Of a stretch of 64,000 nucleotides of DNA, positions 1-37,536 are shown piece by piece. Made by a program: the position numbers and the translations under genes. Within the stretch, counting starts at the first letter, position 1. Every line of letters starts with the position of its first letter. The DNA comes from Bifidobacterium pseudolongum subsp. globosum (GTDB taxonomy: Bacteria; Actinomycetota; Actinomycetes; Actinomycetales; Bifidobacteriaceae): assembly GCF_000741295.1 (NCBI RefSeq), contig NZ_JGZG01000006.1, positions 1 through 64,000 of the forward strand, read 5' to 3'. The notes below the pieces were generated by a model. The model saw only the letters and a list, made by a program, of their open reading frames with translations. It had not been told where the DNA came from and ran no database searches.

Positions 1-2116
1 CGGCGCGCCAGCCGGCCGCGATGCGCGCGCCGGGGCGCCCATGCCGGCGCAGCCAGGCGAGCTGCGCCGCCTTGACGGTCAGGATCAACGCGCACACGAG
101 CAGCACGGTCCACACGGGCGCCCCGTAGACGGCCACGGCGCGCGCCACCTGCGCGACGCGCGCCCAACGCTCGTCGCGCGGCGTCTCCTCGGCCTCGTCG
201 CCGTCGAGCGACGACTGGCCGGTCGTGTTCTGCTCGTCGCGCAGCGGGTCGGTCAGCGGCACCGGCGGCTGCCGGACGAGCGACTGCGGATTGGGGGGCG
301 TCAGGTTCTGGTTGTCGTCGGGCGTCTTCGTCTCTTTCGGCGTGGGGTAGAACGGCACCCAGCCATGGCCGACGAGGTTGATCTCGACCCACGCCGTCAC
401 ATCGTTGCCAGTGAAGTCGATCGTCGTGGTGCCGCCCGCGGTCTGTGTGCGCTCGTCGGAGATCTCGCCGTCGCTGTCCTTGGGCAGGAACCCGAGCACG
501 ACGCGGCTGCTCAGGCCCAGTTCGCGCGCCATTAGGGCCATCGCCGAAGCGTACTGTTCGCTGTCGCCGACCATCGCCGTGCCCGCGAGCAGGCGCGTGA
601 GGCGGAAATTGCCGTGCCCGGGCAGCGACGGGTAGTCCGAGGCGAGGCCATGCGAGAACCAGCCGCGGTCCTTGAGCGTCTCGGCGAGCGCCTGCGCCGC
701 CTCGCCGCCGTTCGACCGGCCGCCGGCGATCGCCGTGGCGAGCGCGCCCACCGACTGCGGCACGTCCTGCGCCTGCGGCTGGGCCACGGTGGCGCCTTTC
801 GCCCCGGCGATCTGCTGGTCGGTGGGCATGGCGGGCACTACACCGCTTTCGGTGTAGGTGAGGCCGTCGCGCACACCGCTCGCCAGCAGTCCGGTGTCGG
901 TGCCGGTGTTGTAGTAGAACGCGCGCGTGAGCCCCTCGTCGGCGAACCGCACGCCGGTCGCGGCGCCGGCGAGCGGCAGCCAATCCTCGTGCAGGCCTTC
1001 GTGCACGGTGAACGTGGCATCGAATGCGCGGCCGGTGTCTTGCGTGGGGATGCGCGTGCCGACGCGCACGTAGTTCGACGAGTCACGCGCCTCGCGCCGA
1101 TCGGACAGGTTCCACACGTTGCCGTCGAAGCGGTCCATCACGGCGAGGCGCACCGGCGTGCCCGCGGGCAGGCCCTGCACGGTGAGCAGCGTGGTGTCTT
1201 TGTGCTCCTTGATGTAGGCGCGCATGCCGCTCAGCGGGCTCGCATAGTCATAGGGGCTCAGCGGCGGGTCGTAATGGTCGCGCAGTGTGACGCGCTGTTG
1301 GCCCACGAGCAGGCAGCCGCCGCACGCCACCACTGCGGCGAGCACCATGATCACCGCGGAACTGAGCCAACGGCCGGCTTCGAGCACGCCCCACTTGTAG
1401 GCCATCCAGACGATGAGCACGAGCGCGGCGATGACGCCGGCCGGCACACGCATCCAGCCGTCGTCGGTGCCGAGCAGCGCGCTCGCCGCGCTGATGGCGA
1501 GCAGGAGGGCCACGGTGACGAAGGACCAGCGCCTTTCGCGCATGACCGCGAAGAACCCGGCGAGCGTCGTGCCCCACAGGCACAGCGTCCACACGGCCAT
1601 CAACGCGCCCTGTCCGGAGCCGACCGGCGGCGCGATCGAGATGAGGTATTTGAACGAGCCGAATGTGGCTGACCAGCCGTCACGTAAGGTGGCGGCCGTC
1701 GGCACCACATGGGCGAGCGTCGTGCCGTTGCAGCAGATGACCGGCCCGAGGATCCATTGGGCCACGACAAGGGCCACGAGCTGCCACCAGACGCGCAGTG
1801 TGGGCAGCACGCTCATCGCGGCGACGCCCGCGCCGATCAGGGCGGCGGGCACGGCCGCGGCCGCCCACAGGCCGAACGAGCCGTAGACATCCACCAGATT
1901 GGCGCACGCGAGCAGCACGGTGAGCGCGACGGCCGCACAGGCGATGAGCGTGGGGCGCCACGGGATGCGTTCGCCCACCATGCGGTGCGACGGCGTGCCG
2001 GTGTTGGTGCGCCAGATCACCGAATGGGTCGATTGCGCCCACGAGCCGGTTGTGGTGCCGGTGCCGGTCGTCAGCGAACGGTCGAGGTCGGGGGAGTGCA
2101 TGGGGTTGAGGTTCAT
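1..2116 (-). CDS. TgpA-like membrane protein with degenerate transglutaminase domain (partial, C-terminus off the left edge)
   Basis: This is the last visible gene of the minus-strand operon. Its ATG at 2116 overlaps the DUF58 stop (ATGA at 2113-2116), so the two are translationally coupled. At least 705 residues are visible. The N-terminal third holds several hydrophobic membrane segments. An extracellular transglutaminase-like domain follows at about 430-600, then a further membrane segment near 665-685. The fold signatures are clear (GDSEQYASAMALMAREL, then AWVEI and GWVPF), but the triad is gone: Ser519 sits where Cys is expected, Thr574 where His is expected, and Tyr590 where Asp is expected, with the usual His-to-Asp spacing kept. 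The family cross-links or hydrolyses peptides; this copy is probably non-catalytic, acting as a scaffold or binding domain. In B. longum the corresponding gene is called tgm. The start is confident; the C-terminus is not seen. Confidence 0.85.
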   Translation of the reverse strand, partial: MNLNPMHSPDLDRSLTTGTGTTTGSWAQSTHSVIWRTNTGTPSHRMVGERIPWRPTLIACAAVALTVLLACANLVDVYGSFGLWAAAAVPAALIGAGVAAMSVLPTLRVWWQLVALVVAQWILGPVICCNGTTLAHVVPTAATLRDGWSATFGSFKYLISIAPPVGSGQGALMAVWTLCLWGTTLAGFFAVMRERRWSFVTVALLLAISAASALLGTDDGWMRVPAGVIAALVLIVWMAYKWGVLEAGRWLSSAVIMVLAAVVACGGCLLVGQQRVTLRDHYDPPLSPYDYASPLSGMRAYIKEHKDTTLLTVQGLPAGTPVRLAVMDRFDGNVWNLSDRREARDSSNYVRVGTRIPTQDTGRAFDATFTVHEGLHEDWLPLAGAATGVRFADEGLTRAFYYNTGTDTGLLASGVRDGLTYTESGVVPAMPTDQQIAGAKGATVAQPQAQDVPQSVGALATAIAGGRSNGGEAAQALAETLKDRGWFSHGLASDYPSLPGHGNFRLTRLLAGTAMVGDSEQYASAMALMARELGLSSRVVLGFLPKDSDGEISDERTQTAGGTTTIDFTGNDVTAWVEINLVGHGWVPFYPTPKETKTPDDNQNLTPPNPQSLVRQPPVPLTDPLRDEQNTTGQSSLDGDEAEETPRDERWARVAQVARAVAVYGAPVWTVLLVCALILTVKAAQLAWLRRHGRPGARIAAGWRA

Positions 2117-3336
2117 CGCATCGCTCCCATGACGAGCGGCAGATCATTGAGCTCACCGATCGTGGCGAGCGTGAAATCGCCGAAATCACGCAGGCCGCGC
2201 GTGGCGCCCGGCGCGGTCTGCACGACGACGACGCGTGCCGGGCGCGGCAACGTGGACGCCATGCGCCGAATGTCGTCGAGCGGTTTGAGCGAGCCGACGG
2301 TGAAGCAGTACAGCGAGGCGTCCGGCGTGAACGCGAGCGCGCCCTGCGCGAGGTTGCGCTCGTCGCCGAGCCGCGGCTCGACGGCACTGCACTCGTCGAG
2401 GAACACCATGGGATTGGCTGGATTGGTGTGTGTGGCGCCCACGTGCACATACAATGGCCGGTCCTCGCGCAGCGCCTGCACGCCGATCGACGCGTGGGCG
2501 CTGACGGCGAGCTCGAATTCGCCTGCATCCACGTAGTCGTCCGGGTTCACGCCGAGGCTGAGCGACGTGTCGGTGCGCCGCGTGGCTTCGAACTGGCGGA
2601 TCATCAATGTGCCGGTCTTCGCGCTGCTCAGCCAGTGCACATTGCGCACATCGTCGCCCGGCTCGTATTCGCGCAGGCCGTAGAAATCGAGGTCGTCGTC
2701 CACAATGTCGCCGGTCGGGTTGCCTTCGAGGTCGCGCGGAATGCCGGCGTGCAGCATGCCGAGCGCCACCACGGTGGGGTGGATGTAGACGGTCACGCGT
2801 TCGGCGAGCCGACGCTCGTGGCGCATGAGGCCGAAGGGATCGCCCTTGCGGATCATCAACGGGCCGATCGGCAGCACGGCGCGCTGAATCGCGGTGAAAC
2901 TCACCGTGGTGCGCTTCGACTGGTGGCTCGCGAGCATCGGGATGCCGAAGCGTTCGTGTTCGTCGCCCATCGGCAGGTCGGCGCGTGCGCTCGCGGTCGG
3001 CGTGGCGCCCGGGTTCTCCACCGTCACCTGCACATGCACAGCGTCGTGCACGCTCACGCGGCGCTGCGAGACATCGATCGACGCGTGGAACGACGTGTTG
3101 CCGAGCGAGAGCACGAGCGCGGCGAGCAGCATGGCCACGCACACGAGGCCCGCGGCGAGCATCTCATGCCAGCCGAGCGTGGCGAACAGGGTCAGGCAGA
3201 TGGCGGCGCACGCGATCGTGGCCCAGCCGAGCGGCGAGATGTAGGCGGTGAGCGCGCGCTGTGCGCGCCTGCGGGCCCGGCGCGCGCGTTGCTGGAACGC
3301 GCGCCGGCGCAGTGCGCGTGCTGCGGAATCGGTCAT
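2113..3336 (-). CDS. DUF58 membrane protein
   Basis: A 407-residue protein. It has a basic Arg-rich N-terminus, two hydrophobic segments at about 30-75, a beta-rich middle part and the DUF58 signature EYEPGDDVRNVHW, followed by a von Willebrand A-like C-terminal region. DUF58 proteins are regularly encoded next to MoxR ATPases and are thought to be their membrane-side partners; the biochemical role is not established. A longer frame from 3564 is open but would run through the MoxR gene. The ATG at 3336, 32 bases after the MoxR stop, fits the start of homology. The stop overlaps the start of the transglutaminase-like gene by 4 bases, so the products are likely made in fixed ratio. Confidence 0.87.
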   Translation of the reverse strand: MTDSAARALRRRAFQQRARRARRRAQRALTAYISPLGWATIACAAICLTLFATLGWHEMLAAGLVCVAMLLAALVLSLGNTSFHASIDVSQRRVSVHDAVHVQVTVENPGATPTASARADLPMGDEHERFGIPMLASHQSKRTTVSFTAIQRAVLPIGPLMIRKGDPFGLMRHERRLAERVTVYIHPTVVALGMLHAGIPRDLEGNPTGDIVDDDLDFYGLREYEPGDDVRNVHWLSSAKTGTLMIRQFEATRRTDTSLSLGVNPDDYVDAGEFELAVSAHASIGVQALREDRPLYVHVGATHTNPANPMVFLDECSAVEPRLGDERNLAQGALAFTPDASLYCFTVGSLKPLDDIRRMASTLPRPARVVVVQTAPGATRGLRDFGDFTLATIGELNDLPLVMGAMR

Positions 3337-3368
3337 GGTGCTGCTTTCGTGGATGGTCGTGTGGGATG

Positions 3369-4619
3369 TCAGAGTGCGGCGGATTGCGCGGGCGCGGGCA
3401 CTTCCTCGAGGATCTGCGCCACCACCTGCTCGGCGGTCAGCGCCGTGAACAGCGCTTCGGACGTGAGCAGCACGCGGTGGGCGAGCACCGGCACCGCCAG
3501 GGCCTTGACGTCGTCGGGGATCACGTAGCCGCGGTTGTCGGCGGCAGCCCAGACGCGCGCGCACAGCGTCAACGCGAGCGCGCCGCGCACCGACGAGCCC
3601 ACGGCGATGCTTTCGTGGTGGCGTGTGCTCTCCACGAGGCGCACGATGTACTCGTAGATCGCATCGTCGATGTGCACGGATTGCGCGAGCGTGCGCATCG
3701 CAAGCACGTCGGCGCCGGTGGCCACTGGCGACACATGCGTGGCGCGGTCGCCGATGTTGATCTGCCGCAGGATGTCGACGCTCGACTCATGCGAGGGGTA
3801 GCCGATCGTGGTCTTGATGAGGAAGCGGTCCATCTGCGCTTCGGGCAGCTTGTAGGTGCCGAGCTGTTCGACCGGGTTCTGCGTGGCGATGACAGCGAAG
3901 GGCTGCGGCACGTCGTAGGTGGCGCCGTCCACGGTCACCTTCTGCTCCTCCATCACCTCGAGCAGCGCAGACTGCGTCTTCGGCGAAGCGCGGTTGATCT
4001 CGTCGGCGAGCACGATCGACGCGAAGATCGGGCCTTTGCGGAAGCTGAACTCGCCGGTCTTCTGGTCGTAGAGCGTGACGCCGACCACGTCGCTCGGCAG
4101 CAGGTCGGGTGTGAACTGGATGCGTTTGAACGACGTGTCGATCGAGCGGGCCAAGCCGCGCGCGAGCTGCGTCTTGCCGGTGCCCGGGTAGTCTTCGAGC
4201 AGGATGTGGCCGCCGGCCACGAGCGCGGTGACGCACTGGCGCACCGGCTGCTCCTTGCCCACCACGACCTGCGAGACGTTGCGCACGATCGCCTCGAACT
4301 GCGTGCTGAACCGCATGATCTGGTCCGCCGTCAGCGTGGAGGCGCCGGCTGCCGGCTGCGGCATCGCCGTCGGGCGGCTTGGCGTGCGCGGCGTGGCGGT
4401 CGGCGCCACCGGCGACGTCACCGATGGCACGGCAGGTGCCGCCGTGCGCGGGGGCAGGCCGGGCACCGGCACCGCCGTGGCCGCGGGGCGGACCGGCGAC
4501 TGGCCAAGCACGGTCGCGTCGGCCGCCGCCGCAAGCGGATCGGCAGTCAGCCCAACGGCCTCGGTGGAGAGGACCGTCTCCTCGGTGATCTGCGGCTGCT
4601 CTGGTTCGTGGTTCGCCAT
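3369..4619 (-). CDS. MoxR-type AAA+ ATPase
   Basis: A 416-residue cytosolic ATPase. Residues 1-95 are a low-complexity Pro/Ala/Thr-rich extension that is longer than usual. The AAA+ core follows, with Walker A DYPGTGKT at 143-150, Walker B VLADE at about 203-207 (continuing DEINRASPKTQSALLE), and a C-terminal lid. MoxR proteins act as chaperone-like ATPases that remodel or activate partner proteins, typically DUF58/VWA proteins encoded beside them, as here. The gene lies 3 bases after the FN3 gene stop and 32 bases before DUF58. In B. longum this position is occupied by the gene named aaa-atp in the PFNA cluster. The Pro-rich extension could be a phosphorylation target of the operon's kinase; that is inference. 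Confidence 0.9.
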   Translation of the reverse strand: MANHEPEQPQITEETVLSTEAVGLTADPLAAAADATVLGQSPVRPAATAVPVPGLPPRTAAPAVPSVTSPVAPTATPRTPSRPTAMPQPAAGASTLTADQIMRFSTQFEAIVRNVSQVVVGKEQPVRQCVTALVAGGHILLEDYPGTGKTQLARGLARSIDTSFKRIQFTPDLLPSDVVGVTLYDQKTGEFSFRKGPIFASIVLADEINRASPKTQSALLEVMEEQKVTVDGATYDVPQPFAVIATQNPVEQLGTYKLPEAQMDRFLIKTTIGYPSHESSVDILRQINIGDRATHVSPVATGADVLAMRTLAQSVHIDDAIYEYIVRLVESTRHHESIAVGSSVRGALALTLCARVWAAADNRGYVIPDDVKALAVPVLAHRVLLTSEALFTALTAEQVVAQILEEVPAPAQSAAL

Positions 4620-4622
4620 GGC

Positions 4623-7600
4623 TTATGCTCCTTGGGTGTTGGTGAATGGCATGAGGATGTGGATCATGTGGGTGTGCGCCATGCGCGCGAAGGCCGCGCT
4701 GGGCTGCACCGGGTCGGTCGTGCCGGTCGGGGAAGGGGATGGCGCCGGTCCGGGCGTCGACGGGTCGGGCGTGGGCATGACCGGCAGCTTGTGGCGCGTG
4801 CCGGAGATGCGCGCCCACTTGGTCTGCGACGACTTTTCGCCGTTGATCGTGACCTTGACGAACCACTGGGCGTCGTCGGGCACCCCGTCGGGCACGGTGA
4901 CGGCCGTGCTGGTGCCGTCCCAGCCTACGAGCACCGGGTTGGAAGACGAACCCACGTACAGGTTCGTCTCGTTGCCCATGCCATACGTGTCGATTGCGTT
5001 GTTGTTGGTCACGAGCACCTTGTGCTCGTCGTTCTGCGACCATTGCACACTCAGCTGGCCCGCGTCGATCCTGGGGTCGACCTTGTGGACGTGGGGGTTT
5101 TCGCCGGTGGCCACGGCGCCGCCATGGTCCTTGACGAAGGGCTGTACGGTGGCCACCGGGCACGACTGCCAGGGGCCGATTGACGTGGAGACCTTGCCGT
5201 CGCGCCCTTCGCGACGGTCGATGTCGCCGAACCGCACATGCACTTCGGTCGCCTTGCCGCCGTCGGTGGACCAGCGCGCGGTGCATGTGCCGCCGTCGCC
5301 GCTGACCGTGACGCTCGACGTGCCCACGCCCACACTCACCGGCACGGGGTTCGAATCGGCGGACGCGGGGGTGACGCCCGGCTTGGCCGGGGCGATCGTG
5401 GCCTTGATGGTGACGTCGGTGAAATACATGTCGCTCGTGATGGGGACGAGCACGGAGCTGCCCGAGCAGTCCATGCCCGAGCCGCGCGACAGCGTGACCG
5501 CGGTGCAGCCGGTGCCGCGCAGATGGCCCGGCGTCATGCTCACGCGCAGATGCTCGTCGTCCACCTGCTCAAGCTTGACCGCGGGGGCCTCCGGGTCGCC
5601 CCACACGTCCGATGTGCCTTTCGAGACGCCCTCCTTGCTGTCGCCGACGGGGTTGTGCGCGATCACCGTGGCGGTGAACGAGCCTTCGCCGATCACATTG
5701 TTGGGGATCTCGAAATTCGCTGGCGACGACGTGACTCCCGACTGCTGCTGCGTCCAGCCGCGCGGGCCGACGAGCTTGACCGTGTAGGAATCAGGGCGTG
5801 TGCCTTCGTAATTGCCGGTGGACCACGAGACGGACGCGCTGCGGTAGCCGCCCTTCACCTCCACGTTCGCCGGTGCTTCCGGCGCGCGGTCCGGCTTGCC
5901 TTCCACCTGGTTCGAATCGGCGGACCAGCCCACGGCGTTCTTGGCGCGCACGGTGAACAGGTAGGTCGTGCCGTTCTTGAGGCCGGTCACCTGGCATGTC
6001 GTGACCGCGCCGCATACCTTCTGCCCGCCGTTCCAGCGCACCTCGTATTCGGTGATCGGGCTGCCGTTGGCGTTGCCCGGCGTCCACTGCAGCGCCACCG
6101 CGCCGTCCTGCGCGTCACCGCCGACAGGCGACAGCCGCGGCGCGTCGGGCACGGCGGCGATCGTGAACGTGAACGTGGCCGTCACATGGCGCGCCGCACT
6201 GCCGGTCGCGTCCTCGACCGTCACGACGACGCGCGCGCTCTGCGCGGACGTGTCTTGCGGCGCGGTGACCGAAAGCGAGTCGCCGCTTGTGGCGAGCGTC
6301 AGCGTGGACCCCGACTCCATGGCCGCGTCGACGATCTTCAGCGGTTCGTCGGGGAACGGGTTGTAGGCGCCCTGCAGCACCGGCACGGTCACCGTCTCGC
6401 CGGCGTTGAGCTTCGTCGTCGTGCCGCTCACGCGCGCGAGCGGGCGCAGCGAGGCCACGACGCGCACGGTGATGCCGGCGTTCACCTCGCCATGCCCGTA
6501 GCCGATCGCGATCGGCACCGAGGCCGTGGCACCGGGCTTCGCGCTGGCTTCGGCGCTGACGACGAGCTTGCCTTCGGCGCTCAGGTTCGCGGTGATGCCC
6601 GACGCGGTGGCGCCGCCGCGGTAGGTGTACGGGTCGTGGTCGCCCGACGCGGCGCTGTGCGTCAGGGCCGTCAGGTCGATCGTGATGGGGGATTCGCCCG
6701 CCACCACATCCACCGCGGTGGACGAGAATGTGGGCGGGGGCGTCTGTCCGCCCACAACCGTGATCGGCAGTGTGATCACCGCGGAATTGACGAGTTTGAC
6801 GCCGCCTTGGCGCCCTTCGAGCTTGCCGTCGGTCGCGGTGAACGTGATCGAGGCGGGGCCGCTGTAGTCGCGGGGTGCGGTGAACGAAAGCGTCTGGTCA
6901 TCCACATAGAGGTCCGCGTTCGCGGCCTTGGTGGCGCTCACCGAATCCCGGCTTTCGACGACGGCCGTCTTGCCGGCGCCCACGCGTACGTAATCGGCGA
7001 TGTTGATCGTGACCGTCGAGCCGGCGTTCACCGTGAGCGCTGGCGCCTTGGGCCGCAGCGTCGGCGGGAACACACCGTATGCGGGCACTTGGATGAACGC
7101 GGTCGACGTCACGTTGTGCGTCGTGTTCGTGACGGTGTACGGCACGGCGCGCGCCTCGTCCGTCAGGTCCACGGTGATCGTCGTGCCGCCGCGCACGCGC
7201 GCGCTGCCTGCGGCCGAGGGGTCGATGCCCACCTCGAGCTCGTCGGCGCCGCCCGAGGGATTCGCGATCCACTGCGAGACGTCCACATCGACCGACCGCT
7301 TGTCGATTGTGGCGATCGCCGGCACGCGGTAGTCGTAGGCGGTCGGCGGGTCGATCGGCGCCTGTGGGTCCGTCGTCACGGTGAGCGTGGCGGTGTCGCT
7401 CAGGCCGGCCGCGTTGCTGATCGCATACACGATGAACGCGGTACCGGCCTTGTCGGGCGTCGTGAACGTGATCTGGCCGTCATGCACGCTTGCTTCGCTG
7501 ATGCCCTGCAGCTCAAGGTGGTCGGACACGGTGAGCTCGCTGTCGTCGCTCGCCACGTCGTTGATCAGCACAGGCACGGTCGTCGTCGTGTTCGGGCGCA

Positions 7601-10600
7601 GCGTGATCGTGTCGTCGCGCGCATACACGGTGGAATTGGCGCCGCTTTGGAAGATGCCGACGCGCACACTCGCCTGCGCGCGCCGTCCGGTCCAATCCTC
7701 GACCGCGTACGTGAACTCGTCGGTGCCGGTGCTGTCGGTGTACGCCTCGTAGATCAGGTAGTCGGCGCCCACTTCGGCGATGCGGCCCTTGGCGGGCGCG
7801 GTGTTGCCCAGGCCCAGCAGCTGCACGTCGTCGCCGTCGGCGTCGATGCCGCGCAGCGTGATGGGGATGCGGATCTTCTGGCCCGCCGCCACCTGCGCGT
7901 CCACGTCGATCGGATTGGCTTCGGCCTTGGTCTCGGCATTCGCCTCGTGCACGGCGAAGGTGATCGTGGCGGAGGCCGCGTTGCCGAGGTTGTCGCGCAC
8001 CGTGTACGTGACGGGGTAGGAGCCGGGCTCGGCGGGCGCCTGGTAGCGCACGATGTCGGAGGCCACGAACACGAGCCCGCGGAAGGTCTCGGGGTCGTAC
8101 TGCAGGTCGTTGCCGAGCGTGATTGTGGTGCCGTCGCTGTAGCTCACGTGGTCGGGCACGTCGACCGAGACGATGCCGCCCGTGCGCACGGAGACGCTCA
8201 CATTCAACGCCTTCGGCGCGCTGCTCGCATGCGAGAGCGCCGGCGGCTGCAGCACGATTGTGCCGTTGGACGTGCCGACCTCGTTCGCCACCGTGTATTC
8301 GATTGAGATCGGCTCGGTCGGCATGCGCACGGCGGTCAGGTAGACGCGTTTGTTCGCCACGAGCCCCACCTTGACGTTGGCGTTGGCGGGCGCCTTGACA
8401 GAGGTCACCGACAGCACGCCGCCCATCGGGTCCACGTCATTGGCGAGCGGTTCCACGATCGCCGTGTTGTCGGCGCCCAGCAGCGCCACATCGTTCGCGG
8501 CCACCGGCTTCGAGGTATCTTCGGTCAGCGCCTCCACCTCGATGCGCGCCAGGCCCGTGGCCGGGATTGTGCCTTGCGTGACCGTGTACGGCACGTAATA
8601 CGTGCCGGGGGTCTGCGCGGTGAACGAGAAGCTCATGTCGGAGGCGTTGAGCGTGGTCGTGGCCTTGTCGGGCGTGTCGACCTGCGTGAGGCGCGCCGGT
8701 TCGGCCGACGTGCCATGCACATACTGCTTGAGCGACACGCGCATGGCGGTGCCGGGCGTGGCGCGGCGGATGAGCGGATCGATCACTGCGGGCAGCGTGT
8801 TCGCCGGACGCACCGAGAAATACACCGTGCCGGTGGCCGTCTCACGGCCGTCTGAGACGGTCAGGCGCACGGTGGCGCGGCCCGCGGCCATCGACCCGGC
8901 GTGGAACGTGAGCAGGCCGTCGGCGCGCGTCGAGACCGTGGCCTCGTCGGTGTTCTCGACCGTGGCGTTGACGAGCGTGAGCGGGTCGCCGTCGTCGTCG
9001 GTGAACGCGCCGAGCACGTTGCCGGTGTAGCTCGCGCCCTGCTCCACGTCGAGCTGTTCGGGGGCGTCGGTCTGGCGCGGCGCGTGGTTCTCCGCGCCGG
9101 TCACATTGAGCGTGACCGTGCCTTGCGAGGTCTGGTCGCGGCCGTCGTCAATCTCGTACGTGAACGTCACGGCGCCGGCGCCGGCATGGCTTGCGTCGAG
9201 CTGCAGGTAGCGGCCGTCGTAGATCGGCGAGACGGTGATCGTGCCGTTCTTCGGCGCGCTGACCGAGGTGATGCGCAGCACCGAGCAATCCGTCTGCTCG
9301 TCGTTGCGCAGCACGTCGAGGATCTGGTGCGCGCCGGCGCGCACGCCGAACGTGTCGTCCACGGCCTTGATCTGCCCGGACTGCGTGGAGCACGTCTTTT
9401 CGAAGGTGTGCTTGTTGCTCGTGCTGTCGTCGTTGCTGCGCTCGGCCTCGTTCTGCTGCGTCTCAATCGTCTTCCACTGGATCTTGATGACGTCGGTCGA
9501 CTCGTCCGGATTCCAGATGTTGCCGTTCGCCACGTCGTTGAGCACCACAAGCCGGTGGTTGACGCGGAACTGCAGCTGCGAGGTCGGCGTGACCTCCTCG
9601 AGTGTGGCGTAGGCCGGGTCGTCGGCGGCCGAGCATGCGCGCACAGAGTTGTTCGTGTGCTGCGCGAACGCCGCGTATACACAGCCGCCGCTCGAGGCCG
9701 GCTGCGCGGGTTCGCCCTGGCCGCCCGACGAGATGAGGCGCGCCTCGCCGCCGCGCTTGGTCAGGTCGACGAGCGCAAGCCCGCTGGACGCGCCGGCCGC
9801 GACCCATGCGCCCTGCTTGCCGTCGGCGCTCGGCGCCTGCAGCACGAGCGGCGCGGCGTCGGCGAACGTGGCGCGCCCGCCGTTCCAGATGATGTCGTCG
9901 CCGTCGCTGATGACGCCCTGGCCGTCGACGACGGTGAACGAGTCGGCGCTCTGCGCCTTGCCGCCGCTCAGCGAGCCGACCTCGCGCACATGGTCGGGCG
10001 CGCCACGGTCGTCGATCGCGAGCACCATGCCGTCTTTCGGCCGGTAGCCGTACACGGTGCCGTCGGCCGTGACGGCGGCCAGGCCGCCGACGCCGAGCTT
10101 CATGTGCGCGGGCGTCTCCGCCGCGTTCAGGGCCTTCACATCGCCGGCATCGCCGGCCCACACGTCGCCGCGCGCACGGTTGAACAGCGCGAGCGTGCCG
10201 TTCGCCACGAACGACTGCATGGCGGCGCCGGTGGGGGCCGAATCGGTCAGGCTGATCGTGGAGGGGTGGATCGCGCTCACCTGCGTGCCTTCGGCGAGCA
10301 CCGTGCTCGCCCCCTGCTGCGCCACGTCGAACTTCGGGTCGCTCGCCGCTACGGCCGTGTCGGGCTCCTGCAGGCGCACGTTGTAGCGCGCCGCCTTGCC
10401 GTCCTGCAACGACGTGACCCAGACGGTGCCGTCGTCGAGCTGCAGGTGGCGCTGGGTGACCGAGCTGACGATGACCGCGCCGGCGATGACCGCGACCACC
10501 GCGAGCAGTGTGACGAGCGGCACGAGCCACGGCCGGTGGCGCGCGGCGACGAACTGGCGCACGCGGGCGTTCAGGTCGTGCGTGCGGCGGCGTGCGCCGC

Positions 10601-10646
10601 CGGCGTCAACGCCGGGGCGCGGCTGGGGGTGCGGCATTCGGGCCAT
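4623..10646 (-). CDS. fn3: Giant membrane-anchored surface protein with Ig-like repeats and C-terminal fibronectin type III domains
   Basis: About 2007 residues. There is a basic cytoplasmic N-terminus (1-40) and one membrane anchor at about 41-61. An extracellular region follows with a propeller-like segment (about 65-400). A long series of beta-sandwich Ig/cadherin-like repeats comes next (about 440-1490), each with a recurring motif of the type VTFTYEIDDGRD. At least two typical FN3 domains sit at about 1498-1590 and 1590-1680, with a likely third to 1770. The C-terminal part is Pro/Ser/Thr-rich. An upstream in-frame ATG at 10688 exists, but 10646 has a purine-rich AGAAAAGG site 6 bases upstream. 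The gene lies between the kinase and MoxR genes. In B. longum the homologous FN3 protein has been reported to bind a human cytokine; whether this one does is unknown. Confidence 0.88.
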   Translation of the reverse strand: MARMPHPQPRPGVDAGGARRRTHDLNARVRQFVAARHRPWLVPLVTLLAVVAVIAGAVIVSSVTQRHLQLDDGTVWVTSLQDGKAARYNVRLQEPDTAVAASDPKFDVAQQGASTVLAEGTQVSAIHPSTISLTDSAPTGAAMQSFVANGTLALFNRARGDVWAGDAGDVKALNAAETPAHMKLGVGGLAAVTADGTVYGYRPKDGMVLAIDDRGAPDHVREVGSLSGGKAQSADSFTVVDGQGVISDGDDIIWNGGRATFADAAPLVLQAPSADGKQGAWVAAGASSGLALVDLTKRGGEARLISSGGQGEPAQPASSGGCVYAAFAQHTNNSVRACSAADDPAYATLEEVTPTSQLQFRVNHRLVVLNDVANGNIWNPDESTDVIKIQWKTIETQQNEAERSNDDSTSNKHTFEKTCSTQSGQIKAVDDTFGVRAGAHQILDVLRNDEQTDCSVLRITSVSAPKNGTITVSPIYDGRYLQLDASHAGAGAVTFTYEIDDGRDQTSQGTVTLNVTGAENHAPRQTDAPEQLDVEQGASYTGNVLGAFTDDDGDPLTLVNATVENTDEATVSTRADGLLTFHAGSMAAGRATVRLTVSDGRETATGTVYFSVRPANTLPAVIDPLIRRATPGTAMRVSLKQYVHGTSAEPARLTQVDTPDKATTTLNASDMSFSFTAQTPGTYYVPYTVTQGTIPATGLARIEVEALTEDTSKPVAANDVALLGADNTAIVEPLANDVDPMGGVLSVTSVKAPANANVKVGLVANKRVYLTAVRMPTEPISIEYTVANEVGTSNGTIVLQPPALSHASSAPKALNVSVSVRTGGIVSVDVPDHVSYSDGTTITLGNDLQYDPETFRGLVFVASDIVRYQAPAEPGSYPVTYTVRDNLGNAASATITFAVHEANAETKAEANPIDVDAQVAAGQKIRIPITLRGIDADGDDVQLLGLGNTAPAKGRIAEVGADYLIYEAYTDSTGTDEFTYAVEDWTGRRAQASVRVGIFQSGANSTVYARDDTITLRPNTTTTVPVLINDVASDDSELTVSDHLELQGISEASVHDGQITFTTPDKAGTAFIVYAISNAAGLSDTATLTVTTDPQAPIDPPTAYDYRVPAIATIDKRSVDVDVSQWIANPSGGADELEVGIDPSAAGSARVRGGTTITVDLTDEARAVPYTVTNTTHNVTSTAFIQVPAYGVFPPTLRPKAPALTVNAGSTVTINIADYVRVGAGKTAVVESRDSVSATKAANADLYVDDQTLSFTAPRDYSGPASITFTATDGKLEGRQGGVKLVNSAVITLPITVVGGQTPPPTFSSTAVDVVAGESPITIDLTALTHSAASGDHDPYTYRGGATASGITANLSAEGKLVVSAEASAKPGATASVPIAIGYGHGEVNAGITVRVVASLRPLARVSGTTTKLNAGETVTVPVLQGAYNPFPDEPLKIVDAAMESGSTLTLATSGDSLSVTAPQDTSAQSARVVVTVEDATGSAARHVTATFTFTIAAVPDAPRLSPVGGDAQDGAVALQWTPGNANGSPITEYEVRWNGGQKVCGAVTTCQVTGLKNGTTYLFTVRAKNAVGWSADSNQVEGKPDRAPEAPANVEVKGGYRSASVSWSTGNYEGTRPDSYTVKLVGPRGWTQQQSGVTSSPANFEIPNNVIGEGSFTATVIAHNPVGDSKEGVSKGTSDVWGDPEAPAVKLEQVDDEHLRVSMTPGHLRGTGCTAVTLSRGSGMDCSGSSVLVPITSDMYFTDVTIKATIAPAKPGVTPASADSNPVPVSVGVGTSSVTVSGDGGTCTARWSTDGGKATEVHVRFGDIDRREGRDGKVSTSIGPWQSCPVATVQPFVKDHGGAVATGENPHVHKVDPRIDAGQLSVQWSQNDEHKVLVTNNNAIDTYGMGNETNLYVGSSSNPVLVGWDGTSTAVTVPDGVPDDAQWFVKVTINGEKSSQTKWARISGTRHKLPVMPTPDPSTPGPAPSPSPTGTTDPVQPSAAFARMAHTHMIHILMPFTNTQGA

Positions 10647-10700
10647 GGCATGCCTTTTCTCGTCGTGACTGTTCAGTGTGGGTCCCATGTGGTGGATGGG

Positions 10701-12119
10701 TCAGCGCGCGGCACAGATCGTGGCCGGGTTGGTGGACATCTGCCGGTCCTCGCGCACGATGCTCACGCGGATGCAGGTCTGCGTGCGGTCGCCCGCCTTC
10801 ACCACAACGCGCTGGTCGGCGGTGAGGGCGGAGTTCGTGAGCCCTTCCGCATCGTCGTCGACGATAACCCACGCATACCGGTCGCCGGGCTGCGGATCGG
10901 GATTCTTCCACGTAAATATCACGGAATCGCCGCTGTACCTGCCCACCACGTCGGTGGGGGAGGGCACGGCGGCGCCGGCGGAGGGCTGCGCGCCGGCGCT
11001 TGGCGTGGCCTGCGAGCCGAAGCTCGGGTTGACCACCTGCGCCTCGCCGCTGTCCACATGGTCGAGGTTCGGCAGCACAAGCGTGCAGAACAGCGCCACA
11101 CCGGCGGCCACCGCGGCCACGGCGGCACCGATCGCGATCCACGCGCCGCGCGAGGGGCCGCGCTTGGCGGTGTCGGCGGTGGCCGTGGTGGCGGTGTGCG
11201 CGCCACGGCGCTGCAGCACGGCCTTGCCGAAGCGGTCCACGCCTTCCACTGTCAGCGGCGTGGCATGGCCGTAGCAGTCGATCTGCGCCTGCTGCATGGC
11301 GCGCGCGAACTCGACGGCGGAATAATAGCGGTCCTCGGGGTTGTGGCTCATCGCCTTGGCGAGCACGCGCTCCACCTGCGCCGGCACGTCGGGGCGGTTC
11401 AGCGGCGGCACCGGATCGTTCATGATATGCGCGCCGAGCTCCTGCATCGTGCGCGGGCGGTAGCCGTGTTCGAACGGCGAGCGCCCCGCGAGCATCGCAT
11501 ACAGCGTGGCGGCGAGCGAGTAGATGTCGCTCGCGTCGGTGCCCGAGCCATTGGAGGCGAGCACCTCCGGCGGAGCCCACGGCAGCGAGAAGCCGGTGCT
11601 GCGCTTGTCGTACACCGAAGCGGAGATGCCGAAGTCGGCGAGCGCGGGCAGCCCTTGCTCGGTGATGAGCACGTTGCTCGTCTTGATGTCGCGGTGCACG
11701 ATGCCGTTGCGGTGCGCGGTGGCCAGCGCGCTCGCGAGGTTGACGCCGATGTCGAGCGTCTCTTCGGCGTCGAAGCGGCGTGTGGCCAGCAGGTCCTTGA
11801 GGTTGCCGCCGGGCGCGTATTCGAAGACGATGTAGCTGCGGCCGTCGGCGGTGATGCCGGCGCCGTAGATCGACAGGATGTAGGGGTGCGCGGAAAGCTT
11901 GGCCATGAAGTTGGCCTCGGTGCGGAAGCGCGCGCCCGCCTTGGGGTCGAGTTGCGCCGTGCTCACCTTGACCGCCACTTCGCGGTTGGTGCCGTGCTGC
12001 AGGTACCGGTACACGGTGGCCGTCGACCCGGACCCGAGGGTGCCGCGGTACTCGTAGCCGTCCAATTGTGGTGGGGCTGCTGCCGAGTCTGGCGTGGCGC
12101 CATGCGCTGTGTGGTACAT
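10701..12119 (-). CDS. pkb2: Membrane Ser/Thr protein kinase with extracellular sensor region
   Basis: A 472-residue Hanks-type kinase. Visible motifs are the glycine loop GSGSTATVY near 29-37, catalytic Lys51 in VAVKV, HRDIKTSN at 142-149, DFG at 162-164 and the APE-like WAPPEVL at 181-187. A single membrane helix lies at about 326-348, followed by a 120-residue outer part that looks FN3-like (SVIFTWKNPDPQPGDRYAW). All catalytic residues are present, so the kinase should be active. It is the first gene of the operon, with AGGGG 5 bases before the ATG. It probably senses an envelope state and phosphorylates cytosolic partners such as the MoxR ATPase tail or the N-terminus of the FN3 protein (inference). 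The gene symbol follows the B. longum PFNA cluster. Confidence 0.92.
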   Translation of the reverse strand: MYHTAHGATPDSAAAPPQLDGYEYRGTLGSGSTATVYRYLQHGTNREVAVKVSTAQLDPKAGARFRTEANFMAKLSAHPYILSIYGAGITADGRSYIVFEYAPGGNLKDLLATRRFDAEETLDIGVNLASALATAHRNGIVHRDIKTSNVLITEQGLPALADFGISASVYDKRSTGFSLPWAPPEVLASNGSGTDASDIYSLAATLYAMLAGRSPFEHGYRPRTMQELGAHIMNDPVPPLNRPDVPAQVERVLAKAMSHNPEDRYYSAVEFARAMQQAQIDCYGHATPLTVEGVDRFGKAVLQRRGAHTATTATADTAKRGPSRGAWIAIGAAVAAVAAGVALFCTLVLPNLDHVDSGEAQVVNPSFGSQATPSAGAQPSAGAAVPSPTDVVGRYSGDSVIFTWKNPDPQPGDRYAWVIVDDDAEGLTNSALTADQRVVVKAGDRTQTCIRVSIVREDRQMSTNPATICAAR

Positions 12120-35427: not shown

Positions 35428-37536
35428 ATGAGTGCAAATACCAAATCAAAATCCGGTGCCGTAGTCAAAGACGCCAAGGGGGGCGCAGGCAACCTCACCA
35501 CCATCGCGTTGATCATGATGAACGTCACGGTCATCGCCGGCCTGGCGAACGACGTGCAGCAGTCGTTCTATGGTCTGTCCTCCGTCACATTGTTCCTTCT
35601 CGGCGGGTTGCTGTTCTTCCTGCCGACCGGTCTGGTCGCAGCCGAACTCGCCTCCGGTTGGAGCCAACGCGGCGGTATCTTCCGTTGGGTCGGCGAGGGC
35701 ATCGGCACATTCCCGGCCATCGCCTGTCTGTTGATCCTCTGGTTCCAGACGACCTTCACCTTCGGCTCCGGCATCCCCTCGATGTCGGCGACCATCGGCT
35801 TCTTCACCACCAAATACGATTGGGCGGTGGACTTCGCCAAGAACTCGCATAGCTGGAAGGTCACGCTGCCGATCATGATCGGCTGGCTCGCCTATTACTG
35901 GTTCTGCTGCTGGCTTGCCACCAAGGGCGTCAAGACCTTCAGCAACATCGCCAAGTACGGTGTGATCCTGGGCACGTTCCTGCCATTGGGCGTCATGACG
36001 ATCCTCGCGGTCGTCTGGCTGTGCCAGGGCAATGCGCCGGCCATCGACATGGCACCGAGCAACCTCGTGCCGAAGTGGGAGGGCATGTCCACACTGGCGT
36101 TGGCCGCAGGCGTGTTCTTCTCGTTCGCCGGCATCGACATGAACGCCGCGCACATCAAGGACCTGAAGAAGCCGAACAGGCAGTTCCCGCTCGCGATTTT
36201 CATCTCGATGATCCTCGCCCTGCTCATCTTCATCATCGGCACGTTGATCATCGCCATGGTCATCCCGAACAAGCAGATCAACCTACTGTACACGCTGTTC
36301 GCCACGTACCGCGCGCTTGGCGCCACGATCGGATTCCCCGACCTGTACCTGGTGTTCTGCTGGCTCGGCATGCTCAACAGCTTCGCCGCGCTGATCACCA
36401 ACCTCGCCGGTCCTTCGTACATGCTCGGCCAAGCCGGCCGCTCGGGCTTCCTGCCCAAGTTCCTGCAGAACAACAACAAGCACGGTATGCCGAGCCGCCT
36501 GATGTACACGCAGATGGCCCTCATGACCGTGATCGCGTTCATCGTGTTCCTGCTGCCGAACGTCGAAGGCTTCGTGGCCTTGATCACGCAGGCCATCACG
36601 ATCCTGTACCTGACCTACTACGTGCTCATGTTCGTCGCGTTCCTGCGCCTGCGTTACCAGCAGCCGAACCGTCCACGTGGCTTCAAGGTGCCCGGCGGCA
36701 TGGTCGGCGCCTGGATCGTGGCCGGTGTGGGCATCATCGCCTGCATCTTCGGCATCGTGCTGGCGTTCTATCCGCCGGCGCAGCTTGAGGCCGAAGTCGG
36801 CTCGGGCATGACCTATGACCTGATCATCATCGGCCTGCTGGCGTTCGTACTGATCGCCTGCATCCTCATCTACCGCGCGTCGCGCAAGCACAACTGGTCC
36901 GATCCGACGAACCAGTTCGCCCCGTTCACATGGCAGATCGAAGGCTTGAAGAAGCCGGGCAAGGCCCTGTCGAACATCCCGACCGCGCTGCTCAGCGAAG
37001 GCCAGAACCCGATGGGCCAGCCGATCAGGCACCTGTACGATCCCAACGAGATGATCGACCTGCCGAGCTCCAAGGAGCCGGACGCCCAGGCTGCCGCAGC
37101 CGCCGCGCTGCTCAAGAAGCACGGCATCACCGAACCGGGCGAGCCCGCGAAGGTCGCGCTTGTGGGCGATCCGAACGCCGGCATGAAGATGATCGCCTAT
37201 GAGCCTGAACCGGTGCACACCGACGACGACGGCAACATGCTGCCTGCGCCCGCCGCCGCGGACGTCAAGGCCGCAGCCGTCCCGACCGACGCCTCCGCCG
37301 ACGCCAAGCGCGCCCAAGCCCGTGCGCAGGCGCTCGAAGCCGACGTGCAAGGCTACACCGACGAGGCGCATGCGCTCGAAGACGAAGCCAAGGACGACGC
37401 CGCACTGGCCAAGGCCGAGCACCGTGTGCAGGTCGACGAGGCCGAAGCCAGCGAGGCTGCCGCCAAGACGGCCAAACCCACGCTTTCCGGCGGCGCGTCC
37501 ACGCCGTCCAAGCCCGCGGGTCCCTCATCCAACTGA
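35428..37536 (+). CDS. APC-superfamily amino-acid permease with long C-terminal tail
   Basis: 702 residues. About 12 membrane segments lie between residues 25 and 495, starting with the APC-type AGLANDVQQSFYGL stretch, and resemble the glutamate:GABA antiporter/YjeM branch. Unusually, about 200 hydrophilic residues follow, ending in an Ala/Glu/Lys-rich stretch (near 610-690) that should form a coiled coil. It probably imports or exchanges an amino acid or short peptide that feeds the neighbouring peptidases. The start at 35428 has AGGAA 6 bases upstream; a GTG at 35407 is in frame but weaker. It lies 56 bases after pepC. Confidence 0.87.
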   Translation: MSANTKSKSGAVVKDAKGGAGNLTTIALIMMNVTVIAGLANDVQQSFYGLSSVTLFLLGGLLFFLPTGLVAAELASGWSQRGGIFRWVGEGIGTFPAIACLLILWFQTTFTFGSGIPSMSATIGFFTTKYDWAVDFAKNSHSWKVTLPIMIGWLAYYWFCCWLATKGVKTFSNIAKYGVILGTFLPLGVMTILAVVWLCQGNAPAIDMAPSNLVPKWEGMSTLALAAGVFFSFAGIDMNAAHIKDLKKPNRQFPLAIFISMILALLIFIIGTLIIAMVIPNKQINLLYTLFATYRALGATIGFPDLYLVFCWLGMLNSFAALITNLAGPSYMLGQAGRSGFLPKFLQNNNKHGMPSRLMYTQMALMTVIAFIVFLLPNVEGFVALITQAITILYLTYYVLMFVAFLRLRYQQPNRPRGFKVPGGMVGAWIVAGVGIIACIFGIVLAFYPPAQLEAEVGSGMTYDLIIIGLLAFVLIACILIYRASRKHNWSDPTNQFAPFTWQIEGLKKPGKALSNIPTALLSEGQNPMGQPIRHLYDPNEMIDLPSSKEPDAQAAAAAALLKKHGITEPGEPAKVALVGDPNAGMKMIAYEPEPVHTDDDGNMLPAPAAADVKAAAVPTDASADAKRAQARAQALEADVQGYTDEAHALEDEAKDDAALAKAEHRVQVDEAEASEAAAKTAKPTLSGGASTPSKPAGPSSN

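Follow-up and report, generated by a model that had tools for sequence, protein, structure and literature searches.

A TgpA-like membrane protein with a transglutaminase domain devoid of its catalytic triad in the PFNA operon of Bifidobacterium pseudolongum

According to papers on gut bifidobacteria meeting their host, the PFNA cluster of these bacteria (pkb2-fn3-aaa-atp-duf58-tgm) includes a gene, tgm, that is named a transglutaminase and presumed to encode a cysteine protease (PMC6803598, PMC8430577). What can its product do if the transglutaminase (TG) domain carries none of the three catalytic residues? This question is raised by the tgm gene found at the very start of a stretch of 64,000 nucleotides from Bifidobacterium pseudolongum subsp. 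globosum (hereafter the window), which begins at base 1 of contig C6 (NZ_JGZG01000006.1) in a genome of 1.94 Mb. The minus-strand frame at positions 2-2116 amounts to 705 codons and is still open where the contig ends, at window base 1; the C-terminal tail, of about 100 codons as estimated from the relative G062, is absent from the contig. According to sequence comparisons and to a structure model, the TG fold is present in Tgm and the active site is absent. The features concerned are the following:

2-2116, minus strand: tgm, TgpA-like membrane protein with a TG domain predicted to be dead; 705 codons, C-terminal tail missing at the contig edge
344-745, minus strand: Transglut_core domain, residues 458-591 (PF01841, 54 bits; Z 23.5 to 6g49)
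560-562, minus strand: Ser519 codon (AGC), former catalytic Cys position, from the alignment with Cys-bearing homologues
395-397, minus strand: Thr574 codon (ACG), former catalytic His position, from the same alignment
347-349, minus strand: Tyr590 codon (TAC), former catalytic Asp/Glu position, from the same alignment
602-655, minus strand: residues 488-505, patch before the former Cys that is conserved in the Cys-less group (S488, G490, S497, H501, R505), from the row comparison described below

Fold and active site of Tgm

The original prediction had recognized by eye a TgpA-type TG domain, and both profile and structure comparisons bear this out. The PF01841 match passes the curated cut-off (54 bits for a cut-off of 23) and is the single one at E ≤ 0.001 in the whole genome; the TgpA_N domain (PF11992) reaches 23.2 bits, below its cut-off of 30. 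An AlphaFold2 model built from residues 50-705 of the window protein and 37 relatives has a mean predicted local distance difference test score of 82.5; when the TG core is divided into 14 blocks of ten residues, nine of them score at least 90. Its superposition on the solved TgpA structure 6g49 gave a Z of 23.5 and a root mean square deviation of 3.0 over 250 aligned residues (243 to 547 of the model, i.e., residues 292-596), and Foldseek gave E-values of 3.5e-11 for 6g49 and 1.8e-11 for 6g4h. Searched alone with phmmer against PDB sequences, the Tgm protein retrieved nothing at E ≤ 1, and NCBIfam yielded no match to it at E ≤ 1; profile A1 found 6g49 among PDB sequences at 2.7e-9. We made no use of a weak match of residues about 330-450 (281-400 of profile A1), in the outer part ahead of the TG core, to human fibronectin modules (6xay, E 0.005), probably due to chance between beta-sandwich domains.

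Ser519, Thr574 and Tyr590 occupy columns that, in 38 non-redundant Cys-bearing homologues, hold Cys (38 of 38), His (38 of 38) and Glu or Asp (32 and 6 of 38, respectively), which confirms the three replacements initially proposed. The same three residues are present in G062, a 97% identical relative, so that a sequencing error is very unlikely, as had been argued from the triple change. Among 112 Bifidobacterium genomes searched, 92 have a match, i.e., 84 with an orthologue and eight with only a longer second family. None of the 84 orthologues has an intact triad at these positions: (i) the first is S in 74, D in five and G in five, never C, (ii) the second is T in 31, E in 34, A in 14 and Q, C, D, R or K in one each, never H, and (iii) the third is Y in 62, H in 10, F in four, R in four and D in four, never Glu. 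The S/T/Y combination itself, query included, occurs in 27 of the 84, and these column counts indicate that it is not a conserved set. As far as sequences tell, what is conserved in the genus is the absence of Cys and His, together with much of the surrounding sequence. Two of the 84 copies, L058 (G018) and L063 (G070), have interrupted frames (in-frame stop, frame change) and were read in pieces for these counts.

The second family was also considered as a possible source of intact triads in the genus. It consists of open frames of about 1300-1900 codons, with Cys, His and Asp intact in all six loci read (L086-L091; G023, G039, G056, G017, G064 and G074), and it is not orthologous to Tgm. The genome of the window has no second PF01841 match.

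The original prediction also regarded Tgm as a pseudoenzyme kept under selection. The ratio of nonsynonymous to synonymous substitution rates (dN/dS, Nei-Gojobori), pooled over 21 disjoint pairs from the genus after exclusion of both broken copies and of pairs with a proportion of synonymous differences <0.02 or >0.5, is 0.218 for the whole protein, 0.264 for its membrane part and 0.175 for the TG domain. A fold that is kept and a dN/dS well below 1 with the triad gone thus support the view of a pseudoenzyme under purifying selection. We then compared 100 rows of the main Cys-less group, which omits seven intermediate rows and includes the window protein twice (L001, L002), with 38 Cys rows. 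G517, R538, G542, W576, E578 and W586 are kept in both groups; eight residues (G517, E520, Q521, A523, R538, G542, W576 and E578) are identical in the 100 Cys-less rows. Other positions distinguish the two groups: His501 is present in 100 of 100 Cys-less rows versus 15 Cys rows (44% of those filled), Gly485, Ser488, Gly490, Ser497, Arg505 and Gly570 reach at least 90% in the Cys-less group only, position 518 is D or N in 99 of 100 Cys-less rows versus Y or F in all 38 Cys rows, and Gly546, found in 38 of 38 Cys rows, is replaced in at least 82 of the 100 Cys-less ones. Given these group-specific conserved residues, the former active site looks rebuilt and not merely lost.

Age of the probable cysteine loss and gene neighbourhood

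Similar full-length proteins occur in the family, across the order and, beyond it, in part of the genomes from other orders and classes (matches in 227 of 297, 111 of 246 and 87 of 148 genomes in three of these searches, triads being read only from the loci retrieved). All the order-level orthologues read in the same type of operon display G[DN][DSGAE]EQ[YF]A instead of GYCEQFA, so that a recent loss is not supported. Several members outside the family retain His and Asp (D-H-D), which fits a scenario in which Cys would have been lost first and the two other residues would have decayed later. We also examined 80 loci from named genera, mostly Bifidobacterium, Cellulomonas and Actinotalea but also Georgenia, Cellulosimicrobium, Sanguibacter, Microbacterium, Occultella and a few others. 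Cys was found in none of the 78 readable ones, in a set that is biased because one of the two search patterns itself requires D, S or E at the Cys position; the sets obtained by the genome searches are free of this bias.

A tree of 145 rows from Actinomycetota (38 with Cys and 107 without, the window protein again being present twice), computed with triad columns omitted, explains the distribution of Cys by one change (support 99), compared to a mean of 33.8 for shuffled labels. One change (support 95) was also obtained from 130 rows without any TG-core column; both trees derive from quick searches, have long branches, are unrooted and carry warnings to that effect. Before construction of the larger tree, 84 of 229 aligned rows had been dropped for a coverage <45% or an identity >72%, and it lacks the Cys-less rows of L189, L197, L200, L220 and L215 (second stretch). 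Orthology across the phylum was judged by similarity and gene order. The two trees speak against many independent Cys losses. Since Cys is present in TgpA and in other members of the superfamily, the change was probably a loss and not a gain, and we infer an ancestral Cys that disappeared about once. Among the Cys-less rows, the triad positions change at least 24, 45 and 36 times, respectively, as expected of sites freed from catalysis, and the first one is S in 52, D in 31, G in 10, A in eight and E in six of the 107 rows.

Other Cys-less MoxR-DUF58-TgpA types were observed in L189, L197, L200 and L362-L364. They display GSPEQFA or GAPEQFA (with Trp for His) or GTAEQFA and have a kinase or FN3 gene close by on the other strand; they may represent separate Cys losses.

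Upstream of tgm, the window carries four genes on the same strand:

2113-3336, minus strand: duf58 (PF01882, 34.5 bits); its start codon is our own assignment inside a longer open frame, 2113-3564
3369-4619, minus strand: moxR, AAA+ ATPase (PF07726, 216 bits), with Walker-type motifs
4623-10688, minus strand: fn3, giant gene of 2021 codons with bacterial immunoglobulin (Ig), cadherin-like and FN3 domains (PF17963, PF17892, PF00041)
10701-12119, minus strand: pkb2, Ser/Thr kinase (PF00069, 148 bits), with kinase motifs

This order, pkb2-fn3-moxR-duf58-tgm, is that of the PFNA operon. The MoxR and DUF58 genes that adjoin tgm are common companions of TgpA without strictly defining it. In order to know which neighbours go with the Cys-less form, we analyzed 60 stretches of 17-20 kb around copies of known triad (match cut-off E ≤ 1e-6), which had been picked after the triads were known, for family spread, and hence are neither random nor blind. 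A match to the FN3 giant or to a Pkb2-type kinase was found in none of the 34 Cys-bearing stretches, a few of which cover no more than 2-5 kb of the region upstream of moxR (e.g., L368, L341), and the profiles used for FN3 and the kinase derive for the most part from Cys-less loci. All 26 Cys-less stretches have a kinase and/or FN3 gene: FN3 is present in 19 and a kinase in 17, several of the stretches being truncated, and at least one of the two genes lies on the tgm strand in 22. Among the 80 loci from named genera, FN3 is nearby in 76, the four exceptions being located on small contigs or at the end of one. Within the genus, 84 of the 112 genomes have the Tgm orthologue, FN3 (E ≤ 1e-30) and DUF58 (E ≤ 1e-10), and the other 28 have none of the three.

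The link with the MoxR/DUF58 pair that had been suggested for the dead domain is only partly upheld: the pairing is real, but it is no marker of the dead form, since MoxR and DUF58 are both found in 32 of the 34 Cys-bearing stretches (neither was shown in L346 and L372). Seven genomes (G192, G203, G206, G221, G585, G617 and G647) harbor both Cys-bearing and Cys-less copies. In another, G765 (L350), a tandem pair of Cys-less TgpA-like modules lies within 20 kb, where matches to MoxR (two), DUF58 (two) and a kinase (three) were obtained.

The operon was initially considered as otherwise intact, as is observed in relatives such as G062. In the present assembly, the part of tgm lost at the contig edge is matched by contig C2 from position 37246 (L352 from about 1500), with 95% identity to G062, beside an unrelated gene: the sequence upstream of 37246 encodes a membrane protein resembling ABC2_membrane_3/DUF3533. 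The split may reflect either a real rearrangement with its breakpoint in tgm or a misassembly. Downstream of the tail (L352, 1732-4325), a PP2C phosphatase and a protein with LRV repeats are encoded, then a protein with an FHA domain on the other strand; the long frame that comes next is taken to be rpoC.

Possible roles of the dead domain

Our interpretation, for which the balance stands about even, is that Tgm is the membrane protein of the PFNA operon whose outer TG fold, catalytically dead, acts as the docking part of a MoxR-DUF58 machine that is controlled by the kinase and serves the FN3 surface protein. The docking role outside the membrane and the identity of the partner are what we infer. 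The polytopic Tgm would expose its dead TG domain outside the membrane as a dock, and the former substrate groove together with the newly conserved patch would hold a partner there, most likely the FN3/Ig surface protein that the same operon encodes. DUF58 and the membrane part of Tgm would relay force or signal from the MoxR ATPase, whose ATP hydrolysis would be set by the kinase and PP2C, and the surface protein would be assembled, held or released as an outcome. According to the PFNA papers, Pkb2 phosphorylates the MoxR ATPase (PMC6803598, PMC8430577), B. breve has a fusion of fn3 with the aaa-atp (MoxR) gene (PMC6803598), and binding of TNF-alpha has been reported for the FN3 protein of B. 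longum (PMC8430577). More tentatively, and with somewhat less than an even chance in our opinion, the MoxR-DUF58-TgpA module of Actinomycetota could exist as two kinds, an enzymatic one with Cys and a signalling one in which the TG domain was killed about once, as a Ser/Thr kinase and a giant FN3/Ig protein joined. The dead domain would then be a membrane receptor or dock for a kinase-controlled AAA+ ATPase acting on a surface adhesin.

Several observations weigh against these interpretations. As the Cys-bearing and Cys-less kinds lie approximately on the two sides of one tree branch, they amount to one contrast and not to 60 independent ones, and the association with kinase and FN3 is based on a single split, approximately, in a tree that has no root. 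A poor TG-core tree of 128 columns including five more short or divergent Cys-less rows gives two changes. Moreover, because of operon linkage, the joint presence or loss of Tgm, DUF58 and FN3 in the genus is partly a single event. Among the 26 Cys-less stretches, the sole kinase or FN3 gene is on the opposite strand in four (L351, L362, L363, L364), and seven have a kinase without FN3, which suggests that another partner may be involved in these. Of the 19 FN3 matches, three (L243, L348, L364) are weak, with 182-337 bits. The dN/dS of the TG domain is about 0.4 in two of the 21 pairs (0.401 and 0.437). Finally, His is kept in 20 of 107 Cys-less rows and an acid at the third position in 34 of 106, which leaves room for Cys-free chemistry there.

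Among the alternatives, the one that survives best, although we consider it unlikely, is that the dead domain is a sensor: by binding a host ligand or a peptide of the cell wall, it would inform the kinase pathway, FN3 being merely a co-regulated neighbour. This would agree with the kinase gene found in 17 of the 26 stretches, several of them truncated, and the PFNA authors favour ligand sensing by Tgm (PMC8430577). However, FN3 is present in 19 of these stretches, the fusion in B. breve points to FN3, and no ligand site was identified in our analysis. It is improbable that the domain has another, Cys-free activity using Asp519/Ser519, Glu520 or the conserved His501. The invariance of His501 in the main group and the rows that keep His or the acid would suit such an activity, but the first position also holds Gly or Ala (10 and eight of 107 rows), which are incapable of acting as nucleophile or base, and none of the 84 Bifidobacterium copies has the catalytic His. 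Still less credible is a TG domain that drifts as a passive relic while only the membrane part of Tgm matters: the triad positions do change freely, but pooled dN/dS is lower in the TG domain than in the membrane part and eight residues are invariant in the main group. A sequencing error or a gene decaying in this strain, which the split of tgm over two contigs and the two broken copies in the genus might evoke, can be practically dismissed given the identical residues of G062 and the S found at the first position in 74 of the 84 genus copies.

If Tgm is dead throughout, models of host interaction by PFNA need a dock or a sensor and not an enzyme. The split between Cys and no Cys by gene neighbourhood would tell, by a simple and testable rule, which MoxR-DUF58-TgpA modules act as enzymes, and if the existence of two kinds of modules is true, the Cys state alone would separate enzymatic from signalling ones in any genome. 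In mycobacteria, the functional relation of MoxR and DUF58 has not been clarified, according to a 2025 review (PMC12067865); Tgm offers a tractable case for asking what such pairs do across the membrane.

Comparison with known systems

The operon is already known, as are inactive TG-like domains in eukaryotes and in RHS toxins. In the open-licence literature, supplements apart, we found no description of the triad loss of the PFNA Tgm or of a Cys loss tied to kinase/FN3 linkage. Among the eukaryotic proteins, EPB42 (protein 4.2) acts as a scaffold. Together with FBXO21 and the Rad4 family, it has an inactive TG-like or papain-like domain as Tgm does; unlike Tgm, these proteins are eukaryotic and have other architectures, and the accessible text mentions no MoxR partner (PMC10318531).

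RHS polymorphic toxins possess bacterial inactive TG domains that have lost at least one triad residue and are occasionally found beside Ig-like domains; they are proposed to anchor by peptide binding (PMC3482391). The RHS domain is fused into a toxin, whereas Tgm belongs to a MoxR-DUF58 module and is a polytopic membrane protein in its own right. The PFNA Tgm of B. longum is encoded in the same gene order (pkb2-fn3-aaa-atp-duf58-tgm), and the accessible parts of the papers devoted to it leave the triad loss unmentioned (PMC6803598, PMC8430577). TgpA of Pseudomonas aeruginosa (6g49, 6g4h) shares with Tgm the same extracytoplasmic fold, the membrane helices that precede it and the location of its gene in a cluster, which is predicted to be an operon (PMC3507681). 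However, TgpA keeps the triad and its periplasmic domain was positive in a transglutaminase assay (PMC3507681), whereas Tgm is devoid of all three residues and is encoded beside a kinase and an FN3/Ig giant gene.
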